A stretch of 64,000 bases of DNA from Pisaster brevispinus (Eukaryota; Echinodermata; Asteroidea; Forcipulatida; Asteriidae). Numbering within the stretch: position 1 is the first letter of the stretch; every line of letters begins with the position of its first letter. A program made the position numbers and the translations under genes. The DNA is taken from positions 323,501 through 387,500 of the forward strand of contig JAMKCF010000011.1 of assembly GCA_023634235.1 (NCBI GenBank), read 5' to 3'. Shown piece after piece: positions 17,167-58,594 of this stretch. Below the pieces are notes generated by a model that worked only from the letters and a program-made list of their open reading frames with translations, did no database searches and was not told the DNA's origin.

Positions 17167-17214
<48 letters not shown>

Positions 17215-17216
17215 TA
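17167..17216. repeat. (ATT)n microsatellite at the junction between ENaC exon and unit 1
   Basis: About 15 ATT units end in ACTATTA. On the left is channel coding sequence; on the right the 22.9 kb unit begins with ATGGCCC. A longer tract of the same repeat sits at the junction of units 1 and 2 (40,138-40,221). Confidence 0.95.
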
Positions 17217-17779
17217 ATGGCCCATTATGGAGACATTTCGCAGTAATAAAACAGCCTTTTGGAGGACATTTTAATTACGGAGACATATAACTGTCTCCTT
17301 TATTCTTTGACCGCTCGAAACGGGTTTAGTATGCATTTGGCATGCTGGATCATGCCGGATTCATTGACTCGAAGACCGTCACCAATGAATGGACCCGTCT
17401 ACATTGGTATGTGGGGTTGTTGAAGCTTAGAAAAACACGCTTAAAATAGGGAAGGTTATATGTCACATGGTGTGAAACGAAGTAATTAGGAGACTTTACG
17501 TTTTTTGGGTAAAAGTCACACTATTCGGAATTATTATTTTGTAAAATTCTTTCTCAGTTTTTTGCAATGTTAAACCAGATAGTTTTTATTTTCAAACATT
17601 CTTTAAAAGTGAACTTATTTATGATGGTCCCCTTTTTGACTATTGGTATCGTCCATGGCTAGACTACTGGAATATTCATAACTTTTTGTCTGGTTTCTGT
17701 ACTCCTAATACCGTAATACAAACAATGTATCATTAAAACCATTTGTCCCCCTTGGCCTTGTATTTGGCGCGCAATGTGA

Positions 17780-17787
17780 TGACGTCA
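17780..17787. promoter_or_regulatory. CRE-type octamer TGACGTCA upstream of the composite gene (copy 1)
   Basis: A full palindromic CRE lies ~95 bp upstream of a short GC-rich patch (GGCGCCGGCGGCC at about 17,860) that precedes the first ATGs. It is conserved in copy 2 at 40,785-40,792. A promoter role is inferred from this setting. Confidence 0.45.
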
Positions 17788-17809
17788 AGAAACTTTCTTG
17801 ATGGTCTTT

Positions 17810-17827
17810 GTGCGTATTTTTACGCAC
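17810..17827. promoter_or_regulatory. Perfect small hairpin GTGCGTA-TTTT-TACGCAC (copy 1)
   Basis: The 7-bp arms are perfectly complementary around a TTTT loop, in the presumed promoter or 5' leader. The same hairpin occurs at 40,815-40,832 in copy 2. Function is unknown. Confidence 0.5.
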
Positions 17828-17882
17828 GTCGGGCGGTGTGTGCCGTCTCTTTTCTCCCTGGCGCCGGCGGCCATGATGCAGC

Positions 17883-18092
17883 ATGGAAAACCAAATTTTT
17901 TATTGCGTAAACAGTGAAAAGATCGATGTCATACAAGAGTATACACGAAGATTAATAATTGCAGTTTTCCTTTTAATCATTTGGTTGACAATTCTTACTT
18001 TTTTAAGTATTGCTGCTGTAGTCCTAGGCAGTGTACGCCGTGGTTCTAATTTTACTAGTAATTTCGACCTCGAGTACTCTACATCGTTTTAA
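17883..18092 (+). CDS. 69-aa membrane-segment ORF, possible upstream ORF (copy 1)
   Basis: Begins ATGG with A at -3, a good start context. It encodes MENQIFYCVNSEKID followed by a hydrophobic stretch (LIIAVFLLIIWLTILTFLSI) and a short polar end. It sits inside the presumed 5' exon of the composite gene, upstream of the donor at 18,260. It could be an upstream ORF, a small membrane peptide, or chance. The copy 2 version (40888-41097) is identical in sequence. I recognise no family. Confidence 0.3.
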   Translation: MENQIFYCVNSEKIDVIQEYTRRLIIAVFLLIIWLTILTFLSIAAVVLGSVRRGSNFTSNFDLEYSTSF

Positions 18093-18253
18093 CGTTGTCG
18101 TGACACTAACATGTAGTGTACGTAGCCGAGCTTATACAAACTCTGCAAGAATATTTTCTGGAATCTAAGTTCAGTACACATTTGGTGTCTGTGTTTTTAA
18201 ACTACTCCTACCTACTCCTCCTACTCATCATAGCGGTCTCGACTGACTTCATT

Positions 18254-21200
18254 ATGTTGGTAAGTTAAACATTTTTTCCACCATTAATACAAAACAACTT
18301 CACTTGGGCTTATTAAGTTATAATATATATATTATTTGCAACTTTACCTGAAAGGCTTAGCATGTTGTGTTGCGATAATCATAACCCTCCCCTCCCCCAA
18401 TTCTCTTGACGCGACGGTCGCACATTTTTATTCAGACCGGTCGGTACGACCGTCGATACATCGTAAGAATACAGTGTTACTATTTTATGCTTTCGAATCG
18501 ATTAACACAAAACCTGTAGAGGCCTACCTTGTTGTAGGCATCCGTAGCAAAATCTCATTTAATTTTTCTAGAATAGGACAAACAAATTGTGACACAAAAC
18601 TACATCACTGGATAGTCTGATAGTTACTGACGGTGACACTGACAGTCTGTCCTGTAGCCTTCAGTTGTGTAGTAATTTTTTATTGAATTGCTCTGAACTT
18701 TAAAAAAGTAAATAGTCAATATCCAGTGATAAGTATAAACTAGCCCACAGGTTGCCATAGTATGGTTGCATACAATCATGACAATGACTCAAACAAGACG
18801 GTATGATACTCCTGTGTGTTTAGCATAAGCTCAGCAAGTAAGCAATTAAACTCTTGATCTAGTACAGTGACATGTACATGTTAATCTCTTTGAAAGTTGA
18901 GATGAAATTTCCTCAAAAGAGTCACTCAAAGCAAAGCAAACTCGTTGTTTTTCTTGTATGCGTCTGCTGGATGGGGAAGGTGCACGATAAATTATGCTGT
19001 TCTAGCTCTTTCATAACTTAACTGTGGAAAGTGAATAACATTTTCTTTTGTACCAAGTGGTGTTGGTAGGGGAGGGGGGGGGGGCATGGCGTGAAATCTG
19101 AAATTTGTATTGAACATTTCCAGAACAAATGTTTCATTTTTCTGCTTTAATGTGATAATTTCATTTTGTAAAAATATTTTTCATATACATGCAGACAATA
19201 TTTTTTGGGGGGCCAGATTATCTTATAAAAAATGGCATAACAAGAGTGCTGAAAGAAGGCTTAAAAAATGCAAGTGTGAACTTGGCCAGAACTTGCAGAA
19301 GTGCCCCCTAATAAAAATGGTGCACCCCGTGTGCCCCTTAAACTTTTACCTTAATTTTCAATGCTGTTTGTATACCTAAACATGCTTATTCACAGTTAAT
19401 ATTTAAAACTTGCAGTTGAGTTTTCTTTGTCATACACAGTCTACGATAGCATGGTTACATTAACCACCCAGGTGCCATGTGTCATTTGAGGAGATTTGTG
19501 TCATATTCAGTGTTTAAACTTTCAACTTTCAGTCTGTGAGACAAACACGATCATCTGCAAATGTCTCTAAGGACAAGCTGATAATAGAAGCATTAAGCAA
19601 AGAGGACCCGGCAAAGACTTTCGTCGTGAAAAACTCTCCAGGCAAAGGTATACATGAGGATGAGCCTATATTTGTTTCAAAAAACTATTTGAACTATATC
19701 TTTGGCAATAACAATTATTTTCACAAGCATTTGATGTGGTAGTCTGAAGGTTCGATCATCTGAAAGTGGGGTTGAGAGGCAAGGGTGATAGTCAAACAGT
19801 TGTAGTGGGAAGCATGAAGTCTTGATAGTTTTAAATGTGTGTACCATCTTGCCATGGACTGAAACAACGATGTGTTTACATCTCAAGTTTGCTATGGTAA
19901 AGATGCGCACAGATACAGTCAATTCTACGTGGCCTTTAAAGCTTTATTGCTGGCTATTGCTGGTAAATTACATGTACATGTTAAATAACTCCTCCCTTTA
20001 GGACCATTGTGTTATGTTCACATTGCCAGTAATATAACGGCAATGGCATGATGGGACTTAAAACCTTTTATTTTACAGTGAAACGTGTCTTTTTAGTGTT
20101 AGTTTCCTAACCTCATGAAGCATATTGTGTCAGAGATAGAATTGTTTTCAAAAATTGCTGCATTGGCTTTTTGGGAGACATTGCAAATTGCAGTGATGAT
20201 TATTGAAGAAAAAATGTGCATTTGGGAGACATTGCAAATTGCTATGTGTTTTGATTATTGAAGAAAAAGTGTACGTTTGGGAGACATTGCAAATTGCTAT
20301 GTGTTATGATTATTGAAGGAAAAATGTACGTTTGGGAGACATTGGAAATTGCTGTGTGTTATGATTATTGAAGAAAAGGTGTACATTTGGGAGACATTGC
20401 AAATTGCTATGTGTTTTGATTATTGAAGAAAAAGTGTACATTTGGGAGACATTGCAAATTGCTATGTGTTATGATTATTGAAGAAAAAATGTACGTTTGG
20501 GAGACGATGCAAATTGCTATGTGTTATGATTATTGAAGAACAAATGTACATTTGGGAGACATTGCAAAATCCTGTGTGTTATGATTATTGAAGAAAAAAT
20601 GTACATTTGGGAGACATTGCAAATTGCTATGTGGTATGATTATTGAAGAACAAATGTACATTTGGGAGACATTGCAAAATCCTGTGTGTTATGATTATTG
20701 AAGAAAAAGTGTACATTTGGGAGACATTGCAAATTGCTATGTGTTTTGATTATTGAAGAAAAAATGTACGTTTGGGAGACATTGCAAATTGTTATGTGTT
20801 ATGATTATTGAAGAAAAAATGTACATTTGGGAGACATTATGTTATGATTATTGAAGAAAAAAATGTACCTTTGGGAGACATTGCAAACTGCACTGTGCTT
20901 TGATTATTGAAGGACAAATGTATTTTTGGAATACATTGCAAATTGATGTGTTATGATTATTGAAGATTAAAAATACAGTTTGGGAGATAAAGCTACTAAC
21001 TCTGTAAGATTTTTTGAGGGATTCCCAGATAATATATTAATCTACCGACATCTCAACATGTCTGAAAATCACCCCTTATTGTCAATTTTATACAAATATT
21101 GACATAATGTGGCCTGTTTAAACTTGGCTAAAACTCTTAATCAGCGCATACCAAACTTTCCTTTTGGCTTATTTATATTAAAAATTACCTTTGCCTGCAT

Positions 21201-24200
21201 ACACATAGCATATAAAACAAATTTTCCTTTTGGCTGATTGAAAACTATGTACCCGCATTTATACTTCTGCTACGATTCTAGAGAGTAGGGCCTTACTTAA
21301 TGTCTATTCAGTTTGGCAACAGACAGATCACATTACGATGGGTCACTCCCGGTTTACTGTATAAACACAACATTAATTTTGTATGTGATGCCATTATCAT
21401 CATTAACAATAAATTGACACAGACTTTTTATTGCATTGTTTCATACACACTTGAAGGTTTAGGAGTCTTTGCCACCAAAGCAATTTCACCTGGACAACCT
21501 TTGGTTGTCTATGGGGGGAAACTTATAACAAAGGAGGAGGGGGAAAGACTGGAGAACGAGAAAGAGAGTGTCTTTCGCTACTTCTTTGTGTTCAAAGGAG
21601 AGAAACTATGGTATGTACTTTTTTTGAAGTAGTTGTTGTTTAAAGGAGAGAAACTATGGTATGTGTTGTTTTTGAAGTAGATGGATACCTGTAGTTTCCA
21701 ACAATTTCCAAGAAAAACAGTTAATTTTTGATTAATATCTACTTTTTCCAATTTTCCTATATTTTGTCTTTTCTTCGTGACCTACTGTACAAGATATTTA
21801 TGGGCAAATAGTGCCTTTAAAATATATTCCAGATTGATAGACATTCAAGTTAAGTCATTTAAGTACTTTTAAAGGTGGCACATGCCCTGTTAAAAAAAAG
21901 TAGATCTTGCTGTGCGTGACAGACACACTTGGTACTCATAATAACTGTAGTGCATGTTTAACAGTGTTTAACCAAACTGGTAGGGTTTTAAATGTTTTCA
22001 CAAAATAATGACTTATTAATTCTTGTTTCCATGTGCTCTCTCATTATAACAGTTGTGACGCAACAGAACCATCAAATTTGCACCTTGGACGACTAGTAAA
22101 TCACGGCAGAGGCAAACACCAAAATGCTAGGATGAAAGTGTTAGATATTAATGGAGCACCAATCCTATGTCTCTTCTCTCTAAAAGGTTTAAAAAAAGAC
22201 GAAGAAGTCTTGTACGATTATGGGATAAAAAATCTTCCTTGGCTTCATAACGCAGGTAAATTATGGGTATATTTTGAAATGTATTTTTGTCTTTGAGAAA
22301 GGAACATCAATAACTCATCACATCCCATTCCTTGGTGGACATTCAAACTTTTAAAACTACCAAAACAATTTGGACTAGGTGGCCCACTTCAGGGTAAACC
22401 TGCCAAATGAACTTTTCCATAGTTATATTTTCAGAGATTGATTTTTTTCACTAAATGAGTCGATACTTTAGACTGCAAGGGGCCTTAGTTAGCATAAATA
22501 GTTTTAGTTTCTTAAGTTATACATATGTAATAACTAAGGGTCACTGGCTGTTGTACTGTAGCTGATCTGTTTGGTCTGTCTTTTTAATTTTCCAAAGAGA
22601 AATAAAGCAAAATTTCAGTGGAGAGACAGAAATGTATTAAAAGGACTAATTAATCTGATTTTATATTATAAAAGCAAATTATCCGAATCTGTTTGTATTT
22701 TTTCACTATTAGGCAGAAACTCCCAAGAAAGTTGTGCTTCTCTAAAACCAGAAAGTGTAAGTGCTTGTTTAAATATGTTGAAATAACTTTAATCCTCAGT
22801 GTTTACATTTTATAACATCACAGAATATACTTATTTGGTTTAGTTCAAATCAAAGAGCTCTGTGCTATTACAATAAATACAAAATGTTATTCTGAATGGT
22901 TTATGATGTACACTAAAGTCTTACATAAGTTTTGTTTTTTTAACCCTTGGCAGTCAGACAAGCCAATACCACAAGAACATCATCTTCATCAGCCCGATGA
23001 TAATCTTGTTGAGGTTGAGGTTGAACAAGTACATGTACCAGCTGACCCGAGGCAGCTTTCCAGTGTTGTTCAACAGTCAGGTTTGTGTGTGTGTTGTTGG
23101 TTTTGTTTTTGTTTCGTTTGTTGGGATGTTTTTTGTTTGTTTGTTTGTTGGGGTTGTTGGGGTGTTTTTGTTTTTGTTTTTTTTTTTTTTTTTTTTTGTT
23201 GTTACTGCTGTTGTTGTTGGGGGTGGTGGTGTTGATGTTGTCGTCGTCGCCGTCTTCGTCGTCGTCGTCGTCGTTGTTGTTGGGTGGTGTTTTTTTTTTT
23301 TTTTTTTTTTTTGGGGGGGGAGGGGGGGTTGGTTTTGTATTAGTGTAAGGTGTGTGTAATTATACCATAGCTCTGATTATACTATATGATGTAGCACCCC
23401 ACATATAAAGAGGAAAGCAGTAGACAACTTCTTCCCTGCAGACCATGGATGGCACTGCAGAGAATGTTTCTGAAGAATTCAGCTATGACCAGCAATGACC
23501 TATGGACCATGGGCCTTCTAGGCGACTGTGCTGCTAATCTCTAGAGTCTAATTTTCTGGGATGGTTTGGCAACGGTTACAAAGGCACATGTACTGCAACA
23601 AACCCTTACTTTAGAAATTTCAGGCTTCTAAGGAACTGCCACTGCTGCACTACACTAATAGCCCCTCATCAGCTAGTCTACACAGCTTTAACAGTAAAAC
23701 TATGAAAGGCTACACACCATCGGCCAACACAAGCTCATTCAGTACACAGTATGTACAACCACATCATACGTCCGAATGAATGTACACAGGCGAACCGATC
23801 TCTGATTTCTCGTACACACCATGCACAACACTTATTTCAAAGCCTTTCCAACGATGGACATGTTGATAAGCGCAGCCCGTGACATGCTTTTGGAGATCAC
23901 TACATTAATTGTGGTCTACTACACTTTGTGAGCGTTGCTAGCCCTCTGTCCCATCACAGTATACTCGATCATGTGCATAGACACATTCGCTAAATTGCTC
24001 AATATTGTTGGATATAACAGGTATGATAAGTAAATTGTTTGAATTTTTATTCAACAGGCAGCAGCATCAACAGGTTCCAAGAAAGTTGTCCATTCCTGAA
24101 GCCTGAAAATGTGAGTGTTGAGATAGCTTAAATATACGACAACGTAGCCTATGCGTGAATACATGTAGACCCACATGTATATCACTTGACATTATAAAGT

Positions 24201-27200
24201 GCACAAGCACTGCCTTTTGCAACAAGTTAATGCATTGAATGGTACATGTACATCAATAGAAACCATAGATACTTAATATAAAAATTGTTTTTGATGCCTA
24301 AAACACTTAATTAGCAATGAGACTATTTGAAATTGCAATAGTTCAAGAGGCTTTTTCTGAAACTGCTGATGTGTGCAAATGATTTGCACACATTGCAACC
24401 TTTGTCATAGGTGGAATTGGAGGGTGACACACTTGCAATAAAATCTGCATCTTGACCTCTGTTCCAACAACTTTGTTGTCTTCTCATTTCTAATTTCAAG
24501 TGCAGACTTAGTTCAACATTCATATACACAAGACAATAAAGGCAATTAGGCTTTATGATCAGCATGCCCATATGCCCATAATATGTTATTCTGAATGATT
24601 TATGATGTACACTAAAGTCTTACATAAGTTTTGTTTTTTTAACCCTTGGCAGTCAGACAAGCCAATACCACAAGAACATCATCTTCATCAGGCCGATGAT
24701 AATCTTGTTGAGGTTGAGGTTGAACAAGTACATGTACCAGCTGACCTGAGGCAGCTTTCCAGTGTTGTTCAACAGTCAGGTTTGTGTGTGTGTCTGTTAC
24801 GTTGGTTTTGTTTTTGTTTCGTTTGTTGGGGTGTTTTTTGTTTGTTTGTTTGTTTGTTGGGGTTGTTGGGGTGTTTGTTTTGTTTGTTTGTTTGTTTGTT
24901 TGTTGTTGTTGTTACAGCTGTTGTTGTTGGGGGTGGTGGTGTTGATGTTGTCGTTGTCGCTGTCGTCGTCGTTGTTGTTGGGTGGTGGTTTTTTGGGGGG
25001 GAGGGGGGGGGGGGTTTTATATTAGTGTAAGGTGTGTGTAATTATACCATAGCTCTATGATTATACTATATGATGTAGCACCCCACATATAAAGAGGAAA
25101 GCAGTAGACAACTTCTTCCCTGCAGACCATGGATGGCACTGCAGAGAATGTTTCTGAAGAATTCAGCTATGACCAGCAATGACCTATGGACCATGGGCCT
25201 TCTAGGCGACTGTGCTGCTAATCTCTAGAGTCTAATTTTCTGGGATGGTTTGGCAACGGTTACAAAGGCACATGTACTGCAACAAACCCTTACTTTAGAA
25301 ATTTCAGGCTTCTAAGGAACTGCCACTGCTGCACTACACTAATAGCCCCTCATCAGCTAGTCTACACAGCTTTAACAGTAAAACTATGAAAGGCTACACA
25401 CCATCGGCCAACACAAGCTCATTCAGTACACAGTATGTACAACCACATCATACGTCCGAATGAATGTACACAGGCGAACCGATCTCTGATTTCTCGTACA
25501 CACCATGCACAACACTTATTTCAAAGCCTTTCCAACGATGGACATGTTGATAAGCGCAGCCCGTGACATGCTTTTGGAGATCACTACATTAATTGTGGTC
25601 TACTACACTTTGTGAGCGTTGCTAGCCCTCTGTCCCATCACAGTATACTCGATCATGTGCATAGACACATTCGCTAAATTGCTCAATATTGTTGGATATA
25701 ACAGGTATGATAAGTAAATTGTTTGAATTTTTATTCAACAGGCAGCAGCATCAACAGGTTCCAAGAAAGTTGTCCATTCCTGAAGCCTGAAAATGTGAGT
25801 GTTGAGATAGCTTAAATATACGACAACGTAGCCTATGCGTGAATACATGTAGACCCACATGTATATCACTTGACATTATAAAGTGCACAAGCACTGCCTT
25901 TTGCAACAAGTTAATGCATTGAATGGTACATGTACATCAATAGAAACCATAGATACTTAATATAATAATTGTTTTTGATGCTTAAAACACTTAATTTTCA
26001 ATGAGACTATTTGAAATTGCAATAGTTCAAGAGGCTTTTTCTGAAACTGCTGATGTGTGCAAATGATTTGCACACATTGCAACCTTTGTCATAGGTGGAA
26101 TTGGAGGGTGACACACTTGCAATAAAATCTGCATCTTGACCTCTGTTCCAACAACTTTGTTGTCTTTTCATTTCTAATTTCAAGTGCAGACTTAGTTCAT
26201 TTACACAAGACAATAAAGGCAATTATCATAATCGGCATGCCCTTAATATGTATCTACCTATAGTCGGGTGCTCGATTAAGCCCTCAAAAAGTCCTGTTGC
26301 AAACATGTTCAGATTTTCGTTGAAAAAGATTGATTTAGTTGGTCGTAGAATTAAGCTTCTTGTGTTTGTGTTTTCTGGGCAATTATTCAAATTGATATAT
26401 ATTAAAATCTTACATACATTTTGCTTTTTAACCCTTGGCAGTCAGTCACTGAAGAGCCAGTGCTACCAGATCATCATCATCAACCTGATAACCTTTCTCA
26501 GGTGGGCAACAGTGCTGATGAGCATTCTGATGACTTGAGCAGGCTGCTCTCCTGGGTTCAACTTAATACAGGTTGGCCTTTATTCTTACAAGTACAAGTT
26601 TTAGTTTTTTGTATTAAACAAGGAAGATAGTGGCAGCACTTTAAGAGTAACTAATACATAACAAACTGCATGAGCTTTTGTATCAACAACTACTTCATCA
26701 TATTCATTGCATCTGATAAAGTTAAATGTTGTTACGAAAGCTCATGCAGTTTTTGTATGTGACGTCAGTTACTACACCTTACTTGTTTTATCTATCAGAC
26801 TAACACGGCTATCTCTATCATCATATACTTTTATGAACATGCCTTTTTTATAAGTGTCAATGTTTAGTTTTAGCACTGATTTTGTGCTTTTCTTGATAAA
26901 ATAGAAGTGCGCATTTAATTTGTCCTTCGTTGATCTAGGGTAGGAAAATACATAAATACACCAGGACCTTGAAAAATTGTATACAACACATAAAGTGTAC
27001 TTTGATTATACCAATGCATTCGCCCCTTTTGAATGCTGCCAACGATACAGGATGAGGGGTGGGTTATGACAGCTTTTTTCATATTCATTGCACATATCAC
27101 TATCAATTCCCCTCTGTACAATCTTGAAAGTGAAACTTTATACAGCTCTTACTTAATTGTTTGCACTCGTAGTAAAATTTGTTTGCCCATGACCATTAAC

Positions 27201-30200
27201 ATCAAGGTCATCATCTCGGTTGCTCAAAACCTACCCATGTACATGTTGTAAATGCATACTTGTTTTTTGTTGTTGTTGAACAGAAAACAGCTCCCAAGAA
27301 AATACAAGTACAAGTAGTCTTCCTTCCTGTTCCATGAAGCCGGAAAATGTGAGCATTACTTTGAATTGTTAGAGCATGTATATTATACTACTGCAATTAG
27401 CTTCTTTTTTTTATTATTCAATGATTCAGTTCCCCCACCCCAATCCATTTTTATTTTATTTTTTTTTTTTTTTTTTGGGGGGGGGGTATAATTTCTGTAA
27501 ACAAAGTATTGTTTTAATTGCAAATTCAAAAGTACGAACAAATTTTGCCTCAAAAGTCTTTTTATAAAAAAGTATGAGCATTAGTAACACTGATAATCTT
27601 GTGTTGTAAAACATTACCAGTTTTGTGTGTGGGCAGAATTTTTGGGAAGATACACAAAGTAAAAAAACAAGAGTGCAAACATAAAAAGGAAGCAAAACAC
27701 ATTGGTATTGGTATAAAATAAAGCTTTTCCTTTTTTGTGTGCATTTAGTGAGCAATTGTTCTGAATGATGTCCACTACAATCTTACATAAGTTTTGTTTT
27801 TTCAACCCTTGGCAGTCAGACAAGCCAATACCACAAGAACATCATCTTCATCAGCCCGATGACAATCTTGTTGAGGTTGAAGTTGAACAAGTACATGTAC
27901 CAGCTGACTCGAGGCAGCCTTCCAGTGTTCAACAGTCAGGTTTGTTTGTTTTTTCTTTCTTTGCTTTGCTTTTTTCCCTTTAGTTTGTTTTTTAAACAAT
28001 ACTCGTTGTTATTTTGTTTCACCCCTCCCTTAATGACAACAAATTTCCAACAGTCTTCTTGCTAAGACTTTGATTTGGATTCAATACATGTGCATTATAC
28101 AGGTGAGTTGTTGTGACATAATTTGTTAAGACATCAGAAACATGCCAAAATATACAAAAAATTAGTGCTGTGTCCGATGATTAGAATATTTTCATGAGTG
28201 GAAAAAATGTTTTTTCCCAATCAAGGAGAGTTTAATTGACAATTCAATTTTTTCAACAAATGAAAATACTCTTAACCATTGCACAAATGCAATCCATCCA
28301 ATATTGTGCTTACACAGCATTCAAATTAAGCAGATATTTGTCATTTAATGGGAGGATAAAACTATCATAAAAAAAACCCCAAAACATCCAAGATTGTATT
28401 CTTCCATCCACTTTGAGGATAGTGTACGTGTTGTGGTCAAGTGTAAATAGTCAACAAGCATAGCATGCAGTAGTAAAATAACCCAGGATGGAATGAAAAT
28501 TCTCAGTGAATAGTCCTAAAATGCATGCTTATACAGGCCATGCAATGGTTTGAGAAATGCCACGTGACCTTACAGTCCTGTTAAAGTACAAAGAGTTCTA
28601 CTTACATGCTGTAGTTGTTGTATAACACATCTTGGCATCGAAGCAACCGTCCTCATATATTGTTCGTGCATGTGACTTACAAGTACAAATATGCAATTTA
28701 CAGCTACTAAAGTGCTCTATATTGTTTGATTAAAGAGTGAATTGTTTGCATGTGTTTCCCAACAGGCAGTAGCTCACGAGAAATCTACTTAAAAGGTCTT
28801 CCTTTTCTGAACCCTGGAAATGTGAGTATTTATTATCTTAAATTGATTTGAATAAACTCTATACATCACAGAAAATTGACTAAAAAAATGCTAAGAAACT
28901 CTGTATAATACTTTGTGGCTACATTATAGCTAAGAAGGAACAAGAAGCAACATACAGAGTAGCCTTGTCCAAGGGTCTTTACGCAAGCACCCCGCTTTGA
29001 ATTCACCAGGAAGCATAACAATACTAGCACGGTACTGCAGTACTTGATATACAGTATACCGTGGGGTCGAAGCATGGTTTTTCAACCTCGTACCAAAACA
29101 CGAGGCCGAAACAGAGCCTTGTTCCCACTGTAAAAAAGGTCAGATTGTGGGCGGAGTTGCTTTATGCTAATATTTCCCGAAGGTGTAAGCTCATTGGTTA
29201 AACACATATCATTACGTCATAGCGAGAGTTTATGCTTGGACGATTATCTGCTTAGTACAGCAAGTGAATATTCAATATCCGATTTAGCGCTGGAATCCCT
29301 GCGCAAAGATAAAGAAAAACATAAGCTGCCGTTTACAATGGAAACAAGGCTCTGTTTCGGCCTCGTTTTTTGGTACGAGGTTGAAAAACCATGCTTCGAC
29401 CCCACGGTATACTGTATATCAAGTACTGCAGTACTGTGCCAGTATTGTTATGCTACCTGGTGAATTCAAAACGGGGTGTTTGCGTAAAGAGCCTTGGACA
29501 AGGCTACAGACGGAGAGGAAAAATAGATCTGGGGATAACCCCAGACATTGAGTTTCACCCTCCTTCAAATGTATCAAGTGCAGTTTCGCCACCACTCACC
29601 GAATTGGACTTATTGCCCACATGCCACGATGCCAGAAGTCCCGCTCTAACTAGAGTGACTGCATATACATTATAATTTATCAAAACATTTTAATGTTTCG
29701 ATAAATTATAATGTATATTTTGACTCTACAATTATAAACATTTAAAAATGTTTATAATTGTAGAGTCAAAATAGACACATACGAAAGTATGCATCCATGC
29801 ATGACTTTGAAACAGCTAGTGAAAATCCGGATATTGTTAGATGGTGTTGTCATGTTTGCTAGTCTGTCATTTAAAATGATGTGTATTAAAATCTCTTTTT
29901 TTTCAACCTTACAGCCAGTCACTTTGAAAGAGGCAAATGATCATCAGGGCCTGCTTTGTATACCATCTACAAGTACTAGTACCACAGCTTCAGATATAAC
30001 TGAATCTGATTCTGATGATTCAACCTATGTGTGCTCTTCTGATGACAGTGATGATTCTGTTACTGAGTCGGTGAGCTTCCCATTAGTCCATGGGACACAA
30101 CCTGTTAAGTCAATGATCTTACCTCCAGTAGCTGAAGCCATTACTGAGGCTAAATCTACATGTGCATCTAAATATGTGAAGCCCAAGCGAATGTGTCCCT

Positions 30201-33200
30201 TCTGCAGCAAAAGCATCCAAGAAAAACTAGCAAGGCACATATCAACGGTCCACAAAAGTATCAAATCAGTTTCTGACGCAATGAAGCTTCCAAAACTAGA
30301 AAGAGATGCTGTATTTGATGGTTTTAAGAAAAGGGGAATCTTCATCACAAACAAGGAGCAACTGAAAAAATCCACACCAGTCTACCAAAGAGAGAGGAGA
30401 AATCTGAGCAGTGATGACAGGCTTGTCATCTGTGGCCTCTGTAGTGGATTTTATTCAAAGAGGTGTTTTAAAAAACATAAAAACAGATGTCAAGGTGACT
30501 CTCTTTCTGCGGCATGCTCTATACCTCTTTCGATGTTGATTACTGGTGATGATATTTCTGATGAGTTTAAAAGAGAAATTTTGTGTAAGTTTCGCAACAC
30601 AGATGTAGGGGAAGTTTGCAGAACAGACCCAGTTATCCTTAACATTGGGCAGCAGCTTTGGAGAAAAGGGAAGAACAAAAAAGATAAGGTGACCGAAAAG
30701 AAAAAATCTGTGATGGCAGACATGAGAAGGCTCGCCTCATTATATGTTGTCTACAAAGATCAAGAAATAGAGTCAATTGATGCAGGGAAACAGACAGTTG
30801 GAGACATGTTCAAAAGAGAGAACTTTAAAGCATTGAGTAATGCAATCGATGTGTACACAACCCATGCCGAGTCCACTGGAATTAAAAGTGGCCTCAAGTG
30901 TGCCCTCTATTACTTGATAAAGAAGGCATGCAAGATCATCAAATCTACCCATCTGATGGAGGGTCGGGATGATGCTGCCGCAGAAATAGACAAGTTCATT
31001 CCTGTATTTGAGCTCAACCATGAGTTTATTTTTGGGGATGCGACTTATGAAATAAACAACAGACGCCAAAAGATGCTGCGAAAACCAACAGAGCTACCTT
31101 TAGAGGAGAACGTCAAGAAGCTCAGAATTTACACAATCAACAAGGTGGAACAGATGTTGGCTGACGACTTCCTTGTCTGGGATTCTCATAACTTTAATGC
31201 ACTTCGAGACCTCACTGTTTCTAGGCTTACGATGTTCAATGCCCGCAGAGGCGGGGAACCATCCCGCTTAAAAATAGCAGAATGGCAGGAAGCAGAAGAC
31301 CGTCAGTGGATTGATCAGCAGAAAGCAGACAATCTGCATGACCCACTTGACAAGTATCTCATTTCCAATCTCAGAGTAACGTACCAGACTGGAAAGGGTA
31401 ACAATCACTTGGTGCCTGTCCTTTTCCCATCCGACACAGTAGAAGCCATGAAGAAATTGACAGACACTGAAATCAGATCAACTGCAGGTGTCAGAGAGGA
31501 CAATTTGTATGTGTTTGCTTGTGTCCAGGGATCATCTACACATGTAACAGGGTGGCTTGCTCTGAATAACATATGCAGTGAAGCAGGAATCGAGTCCAAA
31601 ACAAATCTCACAGCTACAAAAAACAGACACCGCATTAGCACACTCTATGCGGCCCTTGAGCTTCCAGAGCAGGAAAGGGATCTGTTTTTTAAACACATGG
31701 GGCATTCTGGCAACATAAACCAAAACATCTACCAAGTGCCTCCAGCTATAGCGGAAGTCATAAAAGTTGGGAAGCAACTTTTGCAGATTGATAAAGGTAA
31801 ATATTCATTGCCTCACACTTTTAATGGTAAGGGAAGTTATTGAAACAACTACGGAAAACTTTGAATAAAGACATTTGAAAAACTTCTGCAACTGACTTGT
31901 CTCATGTCGACAACAGAATCAAAATGAAAAGTGTAATCCTTGGTTAACATGATGTTGACGAATGATTGCCCTAGTCAGGCAAATAAGTACAGTTTTGTGA
32001 TTTTCAATTTGTGAGCATTTGGTTATTGTTTTGTTAAGTTGATATTGTTTGAAATAAAGTTGTTGTATATTTTCCCAACAGGTAGCAGAGTCAGGTCCCA
32101 AGAAAGTCATCCTTCCCTGAAGCCCGAAAATGTGAGTGTAATTTAAATCTATAGAGTGGTACATGTTTACATTACAGAAACTGATTTATTTGGGAGAAAA
32201 ATCTGTGCAGCCACATGGCTAGATATCTTTAAAAGATGATTGACATTTAAAAAGCTGATTTTTCTGGGTTCGATCCGAAATTGTATTAATTTTTTCAATG
32301 AGAGACACATACTAAAAGCACCATGCAAGATGGCATTAAAAAATCAGCTTTTGCTCAAAAAAGCCATTAGAAAAATATGAACAATTTAGTAACATTGTCT
32401 GGAAAGAGTTTGTGTGTGTCTGATCATACATGTACAGTACATGAATCTTGGGTATTCACTTAAGTATTCACTCATAAAAGTGTCCATTTTTAGATGGATT
32501 ATGTTTAAATTTGTCAGTGACACCACACAGTAATATGCATGCAAATTATTTGTAAAATTTAGCAATAAAATAACTTACATGACAGCTATAATTGAACTTC
32601 TTTTCATTACAAAACGTCTCTCAAAACTGCTGTGCTTTGAGATGCTTTTTCTCATTGAGAGACTCGATACTTTGAACTTGATATGTTGTTTTTGACACTG
32701 CTATGAACTAAATTAATCAGTGATAATGGAGAAAAGATAAGTTTTAGTTTGTGACAAACCTGAACCGATTAAAGTAAAACACTTTTGTATTTCATGACTG
32801 CCAATTTTTTTGAAATTGGCAGAAAAAATACATGTGTTTTTTTATTGTGTTTTTTATTTGTGCATTTGAGCAGAACTTTCACGAAACATTACATGGAGCG
32901 TGAGTGCTACTTAATGAAAATGGGAAATTTCACTTTTGGGCACCGCAAAGGTTACTATGAATAATTAGTGTAATTAATAAATAAAGTAAAACTCTTTAAA
33001 TTTGTAACTGCTAAAACTGTAGGCATTGATGAAGAAGTTTTGGGGAGATACACAAAGTAAGGACAGTGCAAAAACGAATAAGAAAAACACAAGGGATCGG
33101 TAAAAAAATACAGCTGTATAAACAAAAGAGGGACAATAGGTTGCAGGTGTTGTATACAGAATGATGTATCTTAAAATGTAAAATGTTTTTACCCTTGGCA

Positions 33201-34518
33201 GTCAGTCGTTGCATTGAAAGAGCCAATCTTATCACAAGATTTTCATCCTGATGATCTTTCTATGATGAACAACAACGCTGATGAACCAGCTGACGCAAAG
33301 GAAAGGCAGCTTCCTCATGTTCAACAATCAGGTTTGTTTCTTGGGAGTTTGTTTTTCTTCAATTCCCCAAAACTTGAGAACGGTCCCTGTTTCATCAGTA
33401 CATCGATTACACTCGATGATATTTGTGTTTCTTTCTTTTTCAAAGTAAGGCCCCCCCTGCCCCCCCCCCCCCCCTCTGGTGACGCCACTGTTCAGGGCGT
33501 ATCTGACAGATAAGATCCTACACTGGTCCTATGGGAAATTTCACATGCTGTATCATAGTTACCACATAAATTAAAGAGTAATAAAACAGTTGTACAAGTT
33601 TTGAGATGTGCCCCCTTTCTTTATGTAAAAAATTGACATAAATTGTATGGTGCAATTTCCATAAAATGTAAGATTTGTATGTTTTTCTGCCATTGAGTTG
33701 TGTACAAAATGTACCTGCAGTAAGTCCAGGCTCTGTGGCTCTTTGGTAAACATGTGATGTCAAATGTTACATGGTCTATAGGAAATAATGAATGCTTAAA
33801 ACAATAATGCATGTTACCACTTTCTTGCAGTAAGGAAAAGGTACCTTGTCTGGCCAAAATCGCATGAAAAAAAGGTAACGACATTCTTCATGGAGATTAT
33901 CAAAGGAGAAAGTCAGCAGTCTCTACCTAGTAAGTACAAGTATAATTCCCCTTAAGCCCTGCATGTTCATCTAGATGTATGTACTCAAACTTTGACTCAC
34001 TATAAAAGGTTCACCGATTTATACTCGCCAATTTGTAGATTACTTAAGAATAATCTTGTCGCCTACTGACAAATAAAATGAAGGTTTCACTGCTTCTTTT
34101 GTGGTTCTGATGAAAAGTGAGTTTATTTATGTCTCTCTTTTCATGTCACAGCTCACATGAGATAGTTTAACAATTTTAGGAATCAAAATCTATGTATTTC
34201 TAGCAGTTAGAAAAAATGTAACAATATCATCCAGATAAGCTTACATTTAAAAAGATAAAAGTCTATTAGATTAACAGTTTGAGATGTGTTTACAAGAGTC
34301 TCTACTTGAAAACTGTCTAATGAGCGAAGGGTTAACGTGGAATAAATATAGTCTTTATTGTGTTTTTTTTCACAGGAAGAAATCAAATTGAATCCTTCTT
34401 AAAAGAAGAACCAGAAATTCCTTACAGTTGGACAACAATAAGGACCAAAGTAATGAACGAGAAGGCAAAGTGGCAAAGGATTATGAAAAAAAGGATGGAA
34501 GAAATGGGGGAAGACTAG
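18254..34518 (+). CDS. Composite SET - zinc knuckle - tyrosine-recombinase-like gene, copy 1
   Basis: Inferred coding exons: 18254-18259, 19533-19647, 21457-21610, 22053-22255, 22713-22756, 22954-23080, 24058-24110, 24653-24779, 25742-25794, 26442-26571, 27284-27348, 27816-27939, 28766-28821, 29915-31796, 32082-32131, 33202-33331, 33831-33929, 34376-34518. All are GT-AG and the phases match throughout, giving 3,561 nt or 1,186 aa plus stop. Residues ~41-158 form a KMT5A/SET8-like SET domain, 160-419 alternate B and A modules, 420-1046 carry zinc knuckles and a tyrosine-recombinase-like core, and 1107-1186 form a W-containing basic end. The start ATG abuts the first donor and is the least certain part. 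The recombinase half resembles a large family of uncharacterised fish and invertebrate proteins that I recall. A nuclear, chromatin-linked role is inferred; catalytic activity is unproven. Confidence 0.85.
19533..19647 (+). CDS. Composite gene exon 2: N-terminal lead into SET (copy 1)
   Basis: The acceptor is CAACTTTCAG and the donor GTATAC. It reads SVRQTRSSANVSKDK and ends NSPGK plus one base, which joins the next exon as KGLGVFATK. That is the first SAM-binding motif of SET domains, so the junction itself supports the model. Preceding it, ATGTTG|GTAAGT at 18,254 gives an in-phase start. Confidence 0.8.
20168..20990 (+). repeat. 5' minisatellite, ~55-bp unit, ~15 copies (copy 1)
   Basis: Units start TTTGGGAGACATTGCAAATT and continue through GTGTTATGATTATTGAAGAA. 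Period is about 54-56 bp with scattered substitutions and some AATCC variants. It lies in the intron between exon 2 and the SET exons. The unit is visibly related to the 3' array. Confidence 0.97.
21457..21610 (+). CDS. SET domain exon a (copy 1)
   Basis: Starts after TTGAAG to give GLGVFATKAISPGQPL, then VVYGGKLITKEEGERLE and FRYFFVFKGEKL, closely following the N-terminal half of KMT5A/SET8 (H4K20 methyltransferase). An alternative AG at 21,421-21,422 would break phase. The donor is GTATGT. Just downstream a ~30-bp segment holding the exon's end and donor is repeated (GGAGAGAAACTATGGTATGT at about 21,642), leaving a decoy donor. Confidence 0.9.
22053..22255 (+). CDS. SET domain exon b (copy 1)
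   Basis: Joins as KLCCDATEPSNLHLGRLVNHG, then MKVLDINGAPILCLFSLKG and EEVLYDYG, ending PWLHNA. This matches KMT5A's DATxxxxxLGRLINHS...DIDG...LYDYG...PWL order. The SAM-pocket N-H is kept, but the usual Ser after it is Gly (NHG). The pseudoknot YDYG is intact. Confidence 0.92.
22713..28821 (+). CDS. Alternating B-A exon modules B1-A1-B2-A2-B3-A3-B4-A4-B5 (copy 1)
   Basis: B exons: 22713-22756, 24058-24110, 25742-25794, 27284-27348, 28766-28821. They enter in phase 1, leave in phase 0 and encode variants of S-S-Q-E-S-x-P-x-L-K-P-E-N. A exons: 22954-23080, 24653-24779, 26442-26571, 27816-27939. They enter in phase 0, leave in phase 1 and encode acidic variants of SDKPIPQEHHLHQPDDNLVE ending VQQS. 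A is preceded by CCCTTGGCAG and mostly followed by GTTTGT. B+A pairs are phase-neutral, so modules can be gained or lost without frameshift. The sequence looks disordered and acidic, likely a linker or interaction region; no known domain was recognised. Confidence 0.85.
22880..26240 (+). repeat. Recent ~1.7 kb internal tandem duplication of an A-B module (copy 1)
   Basis: The segment about 22,884-24,580 recurs at about 24,582-26,240. It holds exon A, the G/T-rich intron, exon B and the following intron. Differences are few and centre on the GTTT, GTC and poly-G tracts (for example 23,100-23,340 against 24,790-25,020). The same duplication is present in copy 2 (about 45,885-49,245), so it predates the unit duplication. 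Confidence 0.9.
26645..26825 (+). repeat. Dispersed repeat with GAAAGCTCATGCAG and AGACTAACACGGCTA (copy 1)
   Basis: Contains an inverted pair (ACTGCATGAGCTTT at about 26,668; AAAGCTCATGCAGT at about 26,737) and a tail AGACTAACACGGCTATCTC. From memory these words resemble a repeat tail widespread in animal genomes, but I cannot name its class. Copy 2 lacks 22 bp of the left arm region. Confidence 0.45.
28945..29510. mobile_element. Fold-back element with ~170-bp inverted arms (copy 1)
   Basis: The left arm about 28,952-29,125 (TAGCCTTGTCCAAGG...CGAGGCCGAAACAGAGCC) is repeated inverted at about 29,340-29,508, near-perfect, around a ~215-bp centre. The flanking bases are CAGAG on the left and CAGAC on the right, a possible imperfect target duplication. 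It lies in the intron before the recombinase exon. There is no convincing coding capacity. The same element is at about 51,904-52,467. Confidence 0.8.
29663..29771. repeat. Two adjacent long palindromes just 5' of the recombinase exon (copy 1)
   Basis: Palindrome 1 (29,663-29,718) has arms ATATACATTATAATTTATC, with one mismatch further in. Palindrome 2 (29,718-29,771) is perfect, with 26-bp arms starting TTTTGACTCTACAATTATAA and a 2-bp centre. Both contain AAACATT at the apex. They end 143 bp before the exon. Copy 2 has one substitution in the outer stem of palindrome 1. Confidence 0.9.
29915..31796 (+). CDS. Zinc knuckle and tyrosine-recombinase-like exon (copy 1)
   Basis: A 1,882-nt exon (acceptor AACCTTACAG, donor GTAAAT) forms residues 420-1046 of the spliced protein. 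An acidic Ser/Asp-rich stretch comes first. Two zinc motifs follow, C-x2-C-x10-H-x4-H (C513, C516, H527, H532) and C-x2-C-x11-H-x3-C (C592, C595, H607, C611). The C-terminal part has R864 in ARRGGE, R990 in KNRHRIST, G-H1016 in KHMGHS and Y1025 in NIYQVP, in the order and spacing of tyrosine recombinases. The His of the usual HxxR box is a Thr. Phase is 0 in and 1 out, the same as an A module. If the donor is not used, a stop comes at 31,841. Confidence 0.9.
31841..31869 (+). promoter_or_regulatory. Read-through stop and AATAAA behind the recombinase exon (copy 1)
   Basis: Without splicing, the exon reads on for 15 codons to TGA (31,841-31,843). AATAAA follows at 31,864-31,869. This could allow an alternative poly(A) isoform that ends after the recombinase core and lacks the last four exons. 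It is conserved in copy 2. Confidence 0.4.
32082..33331 (+). CDS. Modules B6 and A6 after the recombinase exon (copy 1)
   Basis: B6 (32082-32131) gives GSRVRSQESHPSLKPEN. A6 (33202-33331) gives SVVALKEPILSQDFHPDD and ends HVQQS. They use the same phases and splice sites as the earlier modules, so the module series continues on the far side of the recombinase exon. Confidence 0.85.
33448..33498. mobile_element. Right-end remnant of a hAT-like MITE (copy 1)
   Basis: Only the C-rich right end, GGTGACGCCACTG (element end at 33,490) and the following TTCAGGGC remain. The complete element is present in copy 2 at 57,295-57,534. The rest was lost in a 1,084-bp deletion with AGGC at both breakpoints. 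Confidence 0.85.
33550..33770 (+). repeat. Dispersed repeat shared with the channel intron (copy 1)
   Basis: Counterpart of 13,765-13,975, same orientation. It lies in the intron before exon 17. Confidence 0.7.
33831..34518 (+). CDS. Composite gene last two exons: W-containing C-terminus (copy 1)
   Basis: Exon 33831-33929 (acceptor TTTCTTGCAG, donor GTAAGT) reads VRKRYLVWPKSHEKKV then FFMEIIKGES. Exon 34376-34518 (acceptor TTTTCACAG) reads RRNQIESFLKEEPEIPYSW then TIRTKVMNEKAKWQRI and ends MGED-stop (TAG 34,516-34,518). The W...F...F spacing loosely resembles the Myb/SANT-like end of the related fish proteins. The reading is tentative. Confidence 0.75.
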
Positions 34519-36388
34519 CTTATATAAGACCAGTGTTACAGGTATTGTTTAGAAATATGCAATGGGGGGAGGGGGGACATTGCCAGTTGCAGTGTGTTAT
34601 AACTTTTGGGAGGAGAGAGTAAAATTGAAGAAATTGAAGTGTTAAAACTATCGTAGGGAAAGACGTACATTTTGGAGACAGAGCCAGTTTCTATATGTTA
34701 ATTTTGTTTTTGTGAGGAAATGTACTTGTGGGGAACATTGTCAAATTGGAGACTGCAAAATTGCAATTTGCTATGATTTTTTGAAAAAGGTACAATTTGA
34801 GACATTGCCAATTTGCAACGTGTTATAATTTTGGTGGGAAAAAATGGTTTATTAGGGAGACTTTGCCAATTTGCATCAGTTATGATTTGTGTTCATGAAA
34901 AAAGGTGCAAATGGAAACTTAGCCATTTGCAATGTGTTATAATTTTGGTGGGAAAAATTGTTTATTGCCAGTTTGCATCAGTTATGATTTGTGCTCGTGA
35001 AAAAAGGTGCAATTGGAGACATTGCCAATTTGCAATGTGTTATAATTTTGGTGGGAAAAAATGGTTTATTAGGGAGACTTTGCCAATTTGCAATATGTTA
35101 TGATTTGTGCTCATGAAAAAAAGGTACAATTGGAGACATTGCCAATTTGCAATGTGTTATAATTTTGGTGGGGAAAATGGTTTATTAGGGAGACTTTGCC
35201 AATTTGCAATATGTTATGATTTGTGCTCATGAAAAAAGGTGCAATTGGAGACATTGCCAATTTGCAATGTGTTATAATTTTGGTGGGAAAATAATTTACT
35301 TGGGAGACTTTGCCAATTTGCAATATGTTATGATTTGTGTTCATGAAAAAAGGTGGAAATGGAAACATTGCCAATTTGCAATGTGTTATAATTTTGGTGG
35401 GAAAAATGGTTTATTGCCAGTTTGCATCAGTTATGATTTGTGCTCGTGAAAAAAAGGTGCAATCGGAGACATTGCCAATTTGCAATGTGTTATAATTTTG
35501 GTCGGAAAAATGGTTTATTAGGGAGACTTTGCCAATTTGCAATATGTTATGATTTGTGCTCATGAAAAAAGGTACAATTGGAGACATTGCCAATTTGCAA
35601 TGTGTTATAATTTTGGTGGAAAAAAATGGTTTATTAGGGAGACTTTGCCAATTTGCAATATGTTATGATTTGTGCTCATGAAAAAAGGTACAATTGGAGA
35701 CATTGCCAATTTGCAATGTGTTATAATTTTGGTGGGGAAAATGGTTTATTAGGGAGACTTTGCCAATTTGCAATATGTTATGATTTGTGCTCATGAAAAA
35801 AGGTGCAATTGGAGACATTGCCAATTTGCAATGTGTTATAATTTTGGTGGGAAAATAATTTACTTGGGAGACTTTGCCAATTTGCATCAGTTATGATTTG
35901 TGTTCATGAAAAAAGGTGGAAATGGAAACATTGCCAATTTGCAATGTGTTATAATTTTGGTGGGAAAAATGGTTTATTGCCAGTTTGCATCAGTTATGAT
36001 TTGTGCTCGTGAAAAAAAGGTGCAATCGGAGACATTGCCAATTTGCAATGTGTTATAATTTTGGTCGGAAAAATTGTTTATTTTTGGAGACTTTGCAAAT
36101 TTGCAATGTGTTATTATTTGTGTTCTTGAAAAAAAAGGTACAATTGGAAACAATGCCAATTTGCAATGTGTTATAATTTTGGTCGGAAAAATGGTTTATT
36201 AGGGAGACTTTGCCAATTTGCAATATGTTATGATTTGTGCTCATGAAAAAAGGTACAATTGGAGACATTGCCAATTTGCAATGTGTTATAATTTTGGTGG
36301 GAAAATGGTTTATTTGGGAGACTTCGCCAATTTGAAATTCGTATGATGTGTTGTCATAAAAAAAGGGTACATTTAAAAAGACATTGTA

Positions 36389-36445
36389 AAGTGGCAAAGG
36401 ATTATGAAAAAAAGAATTGAAGAGATGGGGAAAGACTAGCTTATA
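36389..36445 (+). pseudogene. Captured fragment of the last coding exon, first copy (copy 1)
   Basis: AAAGTGGCAAAGGATTATGA... matches the last exon from 34,468, including the region of its stop and the following TTATATAAGACCAGTGTTAC. A few bases are deleted (GAATTGAAGAGATGGGG in place of the longer original). It has no splice acceptor, so it is non-functional sequence amplified with the satellite. Confidence 0.85.
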
Positions 36446-37249
36446 TAAGACCAGTGTTACAGGTATTGTTTAGAAATATGCAATGGGGGAGGGGGGACAT
36501 TGCCAGTTGCAGTGTGTTATAACTTTTGGGAGGAGAGAGTAAAATTGAAGAAATTGAAGTGTTAAAATTATCGTAGGGAAAGAGGTCATTTTGGAGACAA
36601 AGCCAGTTTCTATATGTTAATTTTGTTTTTGTGAGGAAATGTACTTGTGGGGAACATTGTCAAATTGGAGACTGCCAAATTGCAATTTGCTATGATTTTT
36701 TGAAAAAGGTACAATTTGAGACATTGCCAATTTGCAATGTGTTATAATTTGTGCTCATGAAAAACAAGTGCAATTGGAGACATTGCCAATTTTCAATGTG
36801 TTATAATTTTGGTGGGAAAATGGATTATTTGGGAGACTTTGCCAATTTGCAATATGTTATGATTTGTGCTCATGAAAAAAGGTACAATTGGAGACATTGC
36901 CAATTTGCAATGTGTTATAATTTTGGTGGGAAAAAATGGTTTACTAGGGAGACTTTGCCAATTTGCAATATGTTATGATTTGTGCTCATGAAAAAAGGTA
37001 CAATTGGAGACATTGCCAAATTGCAATGTGTTATAATTTTGGTGGGAAAAAATGGTTTATTAGGGAGACTTTGCCAATTTGCAATATGTTATGATTTGTG
37101 CTCATGAAAAAAGGTACAATTGGAGACATTGCCAATTTGCAATGTGTTATAATTTTGGTGGGAAAATGGTTTATTTGGGAGACTTCGCCAATTTGAAATT
37201 CGTATGATTTGTTGTCATAAAAAAAGGGTACATTTAAAAAGACATTGTA

Positions 37250-37305
37250 AAGTGGCAAAGGATTATGAAAAAAAGAATTGAAGAGATGGGGAAGCTTATA
37301 TAAGA
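37250..37305 (+). pseudogene. Captured fragment of the last coding exon, second copy (copy 1)
   Basis: This is a second relic, about 860 bp after the first. It carries an extra small deletion that removes the AAGACTA around the stop. It is the start of the next higher-order block. Confidence 0.85.
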
Positions 37306-38370
37306 CCAGTGTTACAGGTATTGTTTAGAAATAAGCAATGGGGGAGGGGGGACATTGCCAGTTGCAGTGTGTTATAACTTTTAAGAGGAGAGAGTAAAAT
37401 TGAAGAAATTGAAGTGTTAAAATTATCGTAGGGAAAGAGGTCATTTTGGAGACAAAGCCAGTTTCTATATGTTAATTTTGTTTTTGTGAGGAAATGTACT
37501 TGTGGGGAACATTGTCAAATTGGAGACTGCCAAATTGCAATTTGCTATGATTTTTTGAAAAAGGTACAATTTGAGACATTGCCAATTTGCAATGTGTTAT
37601 AATTTGTGCTCATGAAAAACAAGTGCAATTGGAGACATTGCCAATTTTCAATGTGTTATAATTTTGGTGGGAAAATGGATTATTTGGGAGACTTTGCCAA
37701 TTTGCAATATGTTATGATTTGTGCTCATGAAAAAAGGTACAATTGGAGACATTGCCAATTTGCAATGTGTTATAATTTTGGTGGGAAAAATGGTTTACTA
37801 GGGAGACTTTGCCAATTTGCAATATGTTATGATTTGTGCTCATGAAAAAAGGTACAATTGGAGACATTGCCAAATTGCAATGTGTTATAATTTTGGTGGG
37901 AAAAAATGGTTTATTAGGGAGACTTTGCCAATTTGCATCTGTTATGATTTGTGGTCATGAAAAAAAGGTACAATTGGAGACATTGCCAATTTGCCATGTT
38001 ATCATTTTTTTTTTTTTGAAAAAAAAGATGCAAATTGAGACATTGCCAATTTGGAATATCATAACTATAAAAAAAATATTTTGGGAATTGTTGCCATTTT
38101 GCCATGTTATGATTTATTTAATTTTATATTGTTTTGTTTGAAAAAGGGGGTACAGTTTGAGACATTGCTGATAGCAATGTGTTATAATTATTGCGGGGAA
38201 AAGGTTACAGTTGGAAGACATTTCAGTGTGTAAAATTATAGCTTTCGAAAAATAGGTAGGTATACTTTGAGGAAAATAGTACAATTGGAGACGTTGCCAA
38301 TTTGGCAATTTTTTTAATTATTTTATTGGGGGAGGAGTACATTTGGGAGACATTGCCAGGTACTACGTGT

Positions 38371-40134
38371 TATTATTGTAAACAATTATATTATTGTAAA
38401 CAGTTTTGGCAATTTTTTTGTTAATTATAGTTGCAAACTTTTCGAAAAATGTTTTTTATCGTTACAAATGTTCATGTCAGTCTCCATGTAATGGCTGCTT
38501 TGAATGCACTCATTTTTGCAAATGAAAGGATATCTAAAAAAAATTCAGGATTCAAAAATCTACCCGTGACACTTTTGCCTGACTACCTTTTTCATTGCCG
38601 CAAATATACTGCTGCACATTAATGTGTTTAAAGAAACATTATGAGAAGTGTGTATGCTTTTACATTATAAATGTATGTGTATACAAAAACTATAATAATC
38701 CTTTTCGAAATGTATTCACCAATTAACTGTGTCTGCTTCTCTTGCCGTAAGTAAGCATTTACCACAAAATTTAAACGTGTCTTTGAAGTGGTAATTCTTT
38801 CTGAAAGCAATGCTGCTATAGCTCTATTATTTTTTTTACTGGTAGTTAGATAACCAACACAATATTGATAAGCAGCTGTGCTGTCTCTATAAGACCAGTC
38901 TTACAGGTGTTGTTTTTGTAAATGTCGACAGTTTAGTGCGGTTTGTGGCCATCCATATGCATTCGACGTTCCCCAGCCTTTTCAGAACAAATTAAATAAG
39001 AATTAACCAAGAGTGAGATATGAATAAAACATGCTCTGATCCTGTTGTTGCACGTGGAATTTGTGTCTTTTTTGGTTTTTTGGTGTTTTTTTTAACAAAG
39101 TCATTGTAGTTGGTATTTGATTGTACTTGTCCTATTTGTTTATTTATTAGATTATGTTTATATACTTCCAAAAAAACCTCCACACACACTACACACATTT
39201 TTGAAGACAAAGGAGTTTTTAACAAAAATTTAAAAGTATAAGTACAAGTTTTCATTGGGGCCTATCGATCTCCCCCAAAAAATGCATTTGGCAGTGGTGC
39301 ATAGGTTTGACGTGACAGCAACCCGGTCCTCTATATAGAATTCTGACAAAGCAACGCCATTCTTTTTTTTTAGGGGATTTTTTCATTAAGGTTATAAGGA
39401 CTTGGTACAGTGGTTCGACCCCCTCTACTCTTCTTTTCATTTAATTATTTATAATGTTTTTTACGTGGGCGTGAGGGACTGCGCGCATAGTAACCCCTCT
39501 TTATATTCCAAAGTCCACTGCTTACTTTCACGGACCTTTAAACACCTACATGATTCATGATTGTTTTTGTATGTTGAGAGACACTAGTGGGAAATAATGT
39601 CATGTCAAAGACATCCCTTCAAAGTTTATTACAGTGACAGTACCCTCCCCCACCTCAACTAATTTCCCTCTTTGCGTGCGTTTTCTTCATCTTATCATTA
39701 ATCATTAGTGTGTTTAGTGTTACCATCTGCCTTTTCCTTATAGTCGTCAATGTTTACGTATTCTTTTTTGTTTAGATTAAATATTAATTCTTTTTTATTT
39801 TGAACCATTTAAATAAACCACAGTATTTATCTGAAGGTAAATCTAACAAAACAGCAAAACACATGTTATATGATGGTTTCAATCATTACGTCTCCGAAAG
39901 GTCCATCTTAAGGTTTGAAAACCATTAGGGAGACAATAAAAACTACCTCAAGTAATTATGTTCTAAGCAGGATATGGAGCAAACTTTATTTTTATTTCTT
40001 TTTAATTTAATGTTGTTCAAGACGATTTTGTAAACAAACCATACAAATTGAATGGTTGGTTTCCTAAATAAAACAGTAAATGTCATTTGTCTCCTAAACG
40101 TTCAGTTTTTAATGATGTCTACCAAGGGGGCCAT
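38371..40134. other. Right arm of unit 1, no gene seen
   Basis: No supported coding region. A diverged echo of the exon-trailer sequence (ATAAGACCAGTCTTACAGGT) is at about 38,890-38,910, and a plus-strand AATAAA is at about 39,022. GGAGACA words in both orientations occur near 39,890, 39,929 and 40,088, and the unit ends GGGGGCCAT|TTA. Confidence 0.6.
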
Positions 40135-40137
40135 TTA

Positions 40138-40139
40138 CG

Positions 40140-40219
<80 letters not shown>

Positions 40220-40221
40220 TA
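40138..40221. repeat. (TTA)n microsatellite between units 1 and 2
   Basis: About 25 units, longer than the left-hand tract, ending with the same ACTATTA before ATGGCCC. Confidence 0.95.
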
Positions 40222-58562: not shown

Positions 58563-58594
58563 CTTATATAAGACCAGTGTTACAGGTATTGTTT

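Follow-up and report, generated by a model that had tools for sequence, protein, structure and literature searches.

A SET methyltransferase joined to an enzyme of transposition is known from SETMAR, a single domesticated primate gene in which the partner is a mariner DDE transposase. In fungi, the Starships are large elements moved by tyrosine recombinases (YRs), and in the available part of the literature they are described as carrying many cargo genes. YR DNA elements of sea urchin, cnidarians and other animals are known as Cryptons, for whose movement a circle has been proposed; according to the available text of the source (Kojima and Jurka 2011, PMC3212892) they have no inverted ends, no long direct repeats and short direct repeats, and their YR matches DUF3504. 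The same text derives the DUF3504 host genes KCTD1, KIAA1958, ZMYM2-4, QRICH1 and WOC from Cryptons, with most catalytic residues lost, and contains no occurrence of SET or methyltransferase. Here we report on a stretch of 64,000 nucleotides from the sea star Pisaster brevispinus (assembly GCA_023634235.1, contig JAMKCF010000011.1, positions 323,501 to 387,500; "the window"), in which a 22,931-bp element (copy 1, 17210..40140, + strand) can with little doubt be taken, from its sequence, as a tyrosine-recombinase DNA transposon. The whole is best explained, on balance, as a transposon whose predicted recombinase is fused to a KMT5A-like histone methyltransferase.

The gene of the element (18254..34518, + strand) had been described in an earlier sequence-only reading as eighteen GT-AG exons with unbroken phase encoding 1,186 aa. 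Exact exon placement bore this out: all 18 exons were placed with GT-AG introns and continuous phases, and the 3,561 nt contain one stop, which is terminal. Exon 17 ends at 33929, the alternative 33930 breaking the frame. The model is least secure at its start codon, because exon 1 contributes 6 coding bases (two codons). The gene was judged to be real, beyond chance, since relatives with the same order of domains occur in other animals and the window has another intact copy 23 kb further downstream.

Exons 3 and 4 (21457-21610 and 22053-22255; together 21457..22255, + strand) encode a SET domain (aa 41-159). PF00856 matched the gene product over aa 41-149 with E 4.1e-14 (53.3 bits against a cut-off of 22.4). 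In a PDB sequence search the top 14 of the 47 solved sequences that matched were KMT5A/SETD8 (best E 1.2e-17), in agreement with the KMT5A-like SET domain named in the sequence-only reading; this nearness is one of matches to the sequences of solved structures. To our knowledge the linker, zinc fingers and YR of the window protein are foreign to KMT5A.

Exon 14 (29915..31796, + strand) encodes two conserved zinc-finger-like sets, C..C..H..H and C..C..H..C, ahead of a YR core. These sets are the "zinc knuckles" of the sequence-only reading, and its R...R...H...Y series is found again as a conserved R...K...R...H...Y. The catalytic-type residues are R864, K913, R990, H1016 and Y1025, present in 67/68, 66/68, 67/67, 66/66 and 66/66 of the alignment rows with a letter at that position, respectively. 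The predicted structure of exon 14 has the tyrosine-recombinase fold that had been proposed for this region, and the fold lists held nothing notable beyond YR and topoisomerases. Hidden Markov model searches supported the SET half of the earlier reading (PF00856) and not its phage-integrase half: up to E = 1 the window protein has no Pfam match to integrase, nor to DDE or DUF3504. DUF3504 was likewise missing among the matches listed for 34 sequences, which comprised 25 families. Because there is no Pfam integrase match, the core is called a recombinase from its predicted fold and its residue conservation, by which it is likely a member of the tyrosine recombinase superfamily. Pfam as the sole basis of this call was rejected, the window protein being without a match and its relatives having weak PF00589 matches only (best E 5.5e-4, in P0069).

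The sequence-only reading had treated the locus as a single gene; the gene sits instead in a dispersed, tandemly repeated 22.9-kb element. Copy 1, each border of which is uncertain by a few TTA bases, is preceded by a TTA repeat (17167..17209) and begins with an imperfect terminal inverted repeat (17210..17236, + strand), which pairs with the right end (40115..40140, - strand); the inverted alignment of one end with the other has 64 columns at 64% (E 7.9e-4), with TTA repeat making up about 10 of them. At the head-to-tail junction a further TTA repeat (40141..40214) leads into copy 2 (40215..64000, + strand), which is truncated by the window edge. Positions 17167-33451 of copy 1 and 40172-56410 of copy 2 agree at 99.4% over 16,291 columns. 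The gene of copy 2 (41259..58562, + strand) has all 18 exons intact and differs from that of copy 1 by 6 nt and 4 aa. Intron 16 of copy 2 contains about 1.1 kb (56411-57490) without counterpart in copy 1. A by-eye scan confined to the open reading frames (ORFs) of at least 120 aa in the element found only exon 14 to be protein-gene-like.

In the window's own assembly (549.7 Mb, 512 contigs) the YR exon gave 82 matches, and 79 of 148 candidates were scored. Four matches were perfect: two in the window, one on contig C1 and one on C11 at 8.78 Mb; a copy on C8 matched at 99%. A second YR group consists of eight equal-score copies on eight contigs. The left 410 bp of the element were found at 11 loci, and at nine of these the left end follows ATTAT and reads (T/C)ACTATTAAT. 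After two tandem junctions were dropped and one identical-flank pair was merged, six distinct left flanks remained among the nine; the left borders on C13 and C4 have two or three TTA units only. The right end, CGG then TTATTATTA, was present at 8 of 10 loci examined (three of family A, three of family C and two tandem junctions, including that of the window) and absent at L059 (C13) and L067 (C1, 20.27 Mb). The six dispersed right flanks did not match one another. As the flanks differ and the ends are the same, these borders are those of the element itself. Copies scattered among unrelated flanks but with constant ends are a feature of DNA transposons, and this one was probably active recently.

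The YR exon of family C is 66% identical to that of the window, with copies on C1 (two), C8 and C4. Its pair on C1 lies head to tail, 23.2 kb apart, its ends are of the same kind as those of the window element and stand in TTA repeats, and a 75%-identical SET exon lies 4.8-5.8 kb upstream of each YR exon. In family B (63% in the YR) the SET is on two exons matching aa 41-91 and 94-161, limits close to those of exons 3 and 4 of the window gene. With the window SET exon as the query (57 matches), a SET exon was found upstream on the same strand within 25 kb at 39 of 64 YR loci, some of which may be one locus assembled twice; the controls gave 0 (upstream, opposite strand), 3 (downstream, same strand, two of them tandem neighbours) and 0 (downstream, opposite strand). 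The Pfam SET model gave 28 of 64, with controls of 0, 1 and 0. Between families the dN of the YR exon is 0.16-0.64 with synonymous sites saturated, a pattern of the kind that a protein maintained in function would show; no dN/dS ratio is put forward, all between-family pairs being saturated except two (dS 3.7 and 3.6 at dN 0.18). C1, which makes up 6.3% of the assembly, holds 25 of the 64 YR loci; this excess may mean that C1 is a hot spot or a chromosome of a special kind, or it may come from the assembly.

Using aa 500-1046 as the query, 67 proteins were obtained. A SET domain is on record for 11 of them, including proteins of sea urchin, crinoid, sea cucumber, Hydractinia, Hydra, Haliotis and oyster, and a profile built from four SETs detected an at least partial SET in 14 of the 67. 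A second YR subfamily, found with Apostichopus P0069, comprised 631 proteins with a SET in 18 of 120 listed, including those of the fish Epinephelus, Nothobranchius and Betta. A near-complete SET together with a YR occurs in 27 of 189 proteins compared, the window model included; these relatives are predicted proteins, and some gene models may be wrong. A protein of this kind had been thought new in the first reading. The fusion itself stands, as it recurs in predicted cnidarian, mollusc, echinoderm and fish proteins and in the genome-wide co-location; the architecture, however, is already in public protein sets, where it is mostly unnamed. One Holothuria member carries the name KMT5A-B.

The window element is like a Crypton in being a DNA element with a tyrosine recombinase, but differs in its imperfect inverted ends, TTA repeat flanks, length of 22.9 kb, 18 exons, SET domain and lack of a DUF3504 match. 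Since inverted ends are present and the YR is not of the DUF3504 type, it was not filed as a Crypton; it is Crypton-like in the broad sense only. The window protein shares with the DUF3504 genes the state of an animal protein with a YR-type domain, but it keeps R, K, R, H and Y and its gene sits in a dispersed element. SETMAR is the nearest idea, a SET methyltransferase joined to a transposition enzyme, but here the partner has a YR fold with no DDE match, and there are dispersed copies and several phyla. Like the Starships the element is large and has a YR, but one gene was found in it, its YR being fused to the SET. No description of a SET-YR element was found in the literature searched, a scope that excludes subscription journals and Repbase, nor in the available text of PMC3212892, PMC9004415 and PMC9406493. 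If the proposal is true, a single protein of a mobile element both moves DNA and marks histones, and, with copies alike enough to be recent, a transposon setting its own chromatin becomes directly testable. Some "KMT5A-like" annotations, such as that of Holothuria KMT5A-B, could then be transposon genes, and animals would gain a YR lineage with its catalytic residues kept, beside the DUF3504 genes, which lack most of them according to the available text of PMC3212892.

A possible mechanism can be outlined. The recombinase would cut and rejoin at the inverted-repeat-like ends, a circular intermediate being probable, and would integrate into TTA repeats, including the TTA repeat beside a resident copy. 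Insertion next to a copy already in place would explain why two families have head-to-tail dimers, although these could also arise from unequal exchange between TTA arrays. The motif GGAGAC occurs in the 310-bp ends 4 and 3 times in family A and 5 and 5 times in family C, where 0.05-0.08 per end is expected from mononucleotide shuffles; for each end, 0 of 5,000 shuffles had as many. It recurs in a 55-bp minisatellite in intron 2 (20170..20987, + strand) and in 58/115-bp minisatellites 3' of the gene (34541..38060, + strand), 55 times in these internal arrays and on one strand, versus 4 times within 17 kb of the left flank. Such a distribution suggests that GGAGAC is likely a docking motif for the protein of the element. 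The zinc fingers and recombinase would hold the protein on GGAGAC at the ends and internal arrays, whereupon the SET domain would methylate a lysine on nearby nucleosomes, H4K20 being the first candidate by relation to KMT5A, and the methylation would set the chromatin state of the element copies or of the target.

That the SET domain marks the histones of the element itself has a chance somewhat short of even. More tentative again is the general form of the proposal, in which an animal-wide class of YR transposons, from hydroids to fish, would write its own epigenetic mark through a captured KMT5A-type SET docked on GGAGAC arrays, methylating nucleosomes of its own copies or of the TTA target, so that one protein would serve excision, integration and chromatin state. 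It is rather unlikely, though still the strongest alternative, that the joined SET-recombinase transposon exists as described but that its SET has the recombinase itself or some host protein as its substrate, or has lost its activity. KMT5A also has non-histone substrates, and NH is changed to ND in the SET domains of several relatives; against this, NH and YDYG are both retained in the window gene and its nearest solved relatives are KMT5A.

Several findings weigh against a SET-recombinase transposon as such. Foldseek alone gave no match at E 0.001 or better, and the His of HxxR, which is not strict across the tyrosine recombinase superfamily, is replaced by Thr in 63/68 rows and, in another count, in 25/27. 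A recorded SET is missing in 56 of the 67 relatives and in 102 of the 120 listed, and 25 of the 64 YR loci are without a SET exon within 25 kb. P0068, one of 2 proteins kept from 231 candidates under the length rule in a search with SET residues 18-172, has the same SET type and no YR. Across 25 non-redundant fusions the correlation between SET and YR distances is weak (Mantel r 0.25, with 6 of 2,000 permutations as high); probably the domains have been swapped at times, or the distance signal is saturated. Because this test is weak, no single inherited fusion is claimed. The frequency of SET-less YR proteins, and the fact that no transcript was seen, would suit two adjacent element genes joined by the exon model alone, but the phase is continuous over 18 exons and fused predicted proteins exist in several animals, the 27 with near-complete SET and YR among them, which makes this improbable. 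As judged from the gene models, SET and recombinase are very likely encoded as one joined protein.

Among the copies, stops are present in some, and at two of the 11 left-end loci (L053 and L054, which are alike) the left end adjoins a different tandem repeat with ATTACTATTATT. The left flanks of the C1 and C11 (8.78 Mb) copies are identical over at least 2,040 bp while the right flanks differ (L040/L042 vs L041/L043), which may be due to a misjoin or to exchange between copies. This common left flank, the many introns and the tandem copies could speak for a domesticated host gene family spread by segmental duplication with no transposon involved; given fixed ends in TTA repeats in two families, with six left and six right flanks that differ, this is very improbable. 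A lone host gene was rejected in view of the second window copy and the dispersed copies elsewhere. That the repeated copies are an assembly artefact is scarcely credible, for although some small-contig copies do not differ from chromosomal ones in the part compared (they may be unmerged haplotypes) and one left flank was found twice, six left and six right flanks still differ after merging of identical ones. L053 and L054 are stop-bearing family A copies beside a TTTTACTAG-type tandem repeat, not TTA.

The SET and YR parts are separated by a linker of repeated exon pairs (exons 5-13, 22713..28821, + strand). One linker exon pair has been duplicated with its introns inside the gene (22881-26225), and the length of the linker may therefore vary between copies. 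Intron 13 contains a fold-back repeat (28959-29507) with 176-bp arms that are 95% complementary, perhaps a small nonautonomous transposon. Exons 17-18 (33831..34518, + strand) encode a C-terminal domain, which recurs in relatives and for which a PDB sequence search up to E 1 gave nothing. Further domains are carried by P0027, P0042, P0044, P0054, P0110, P0145 and P0165: a kinase in hydrozoans and BRCT, OTU and HECT in other relatives. A herpes-tegument-type domain in an oyster relative among them was given by precomputed Pfam only and was absent from our own Pfam run. The YR core thus seems, from these predicted proteins, to collect domains. Two further ORFs of the window have no Pfam match, and at 15562-16275 (- strand) an open frame that weakly matches PF00858 (E 7e-6, above the cut-off) is probably a sodium-channel gene exon adjoining the element.
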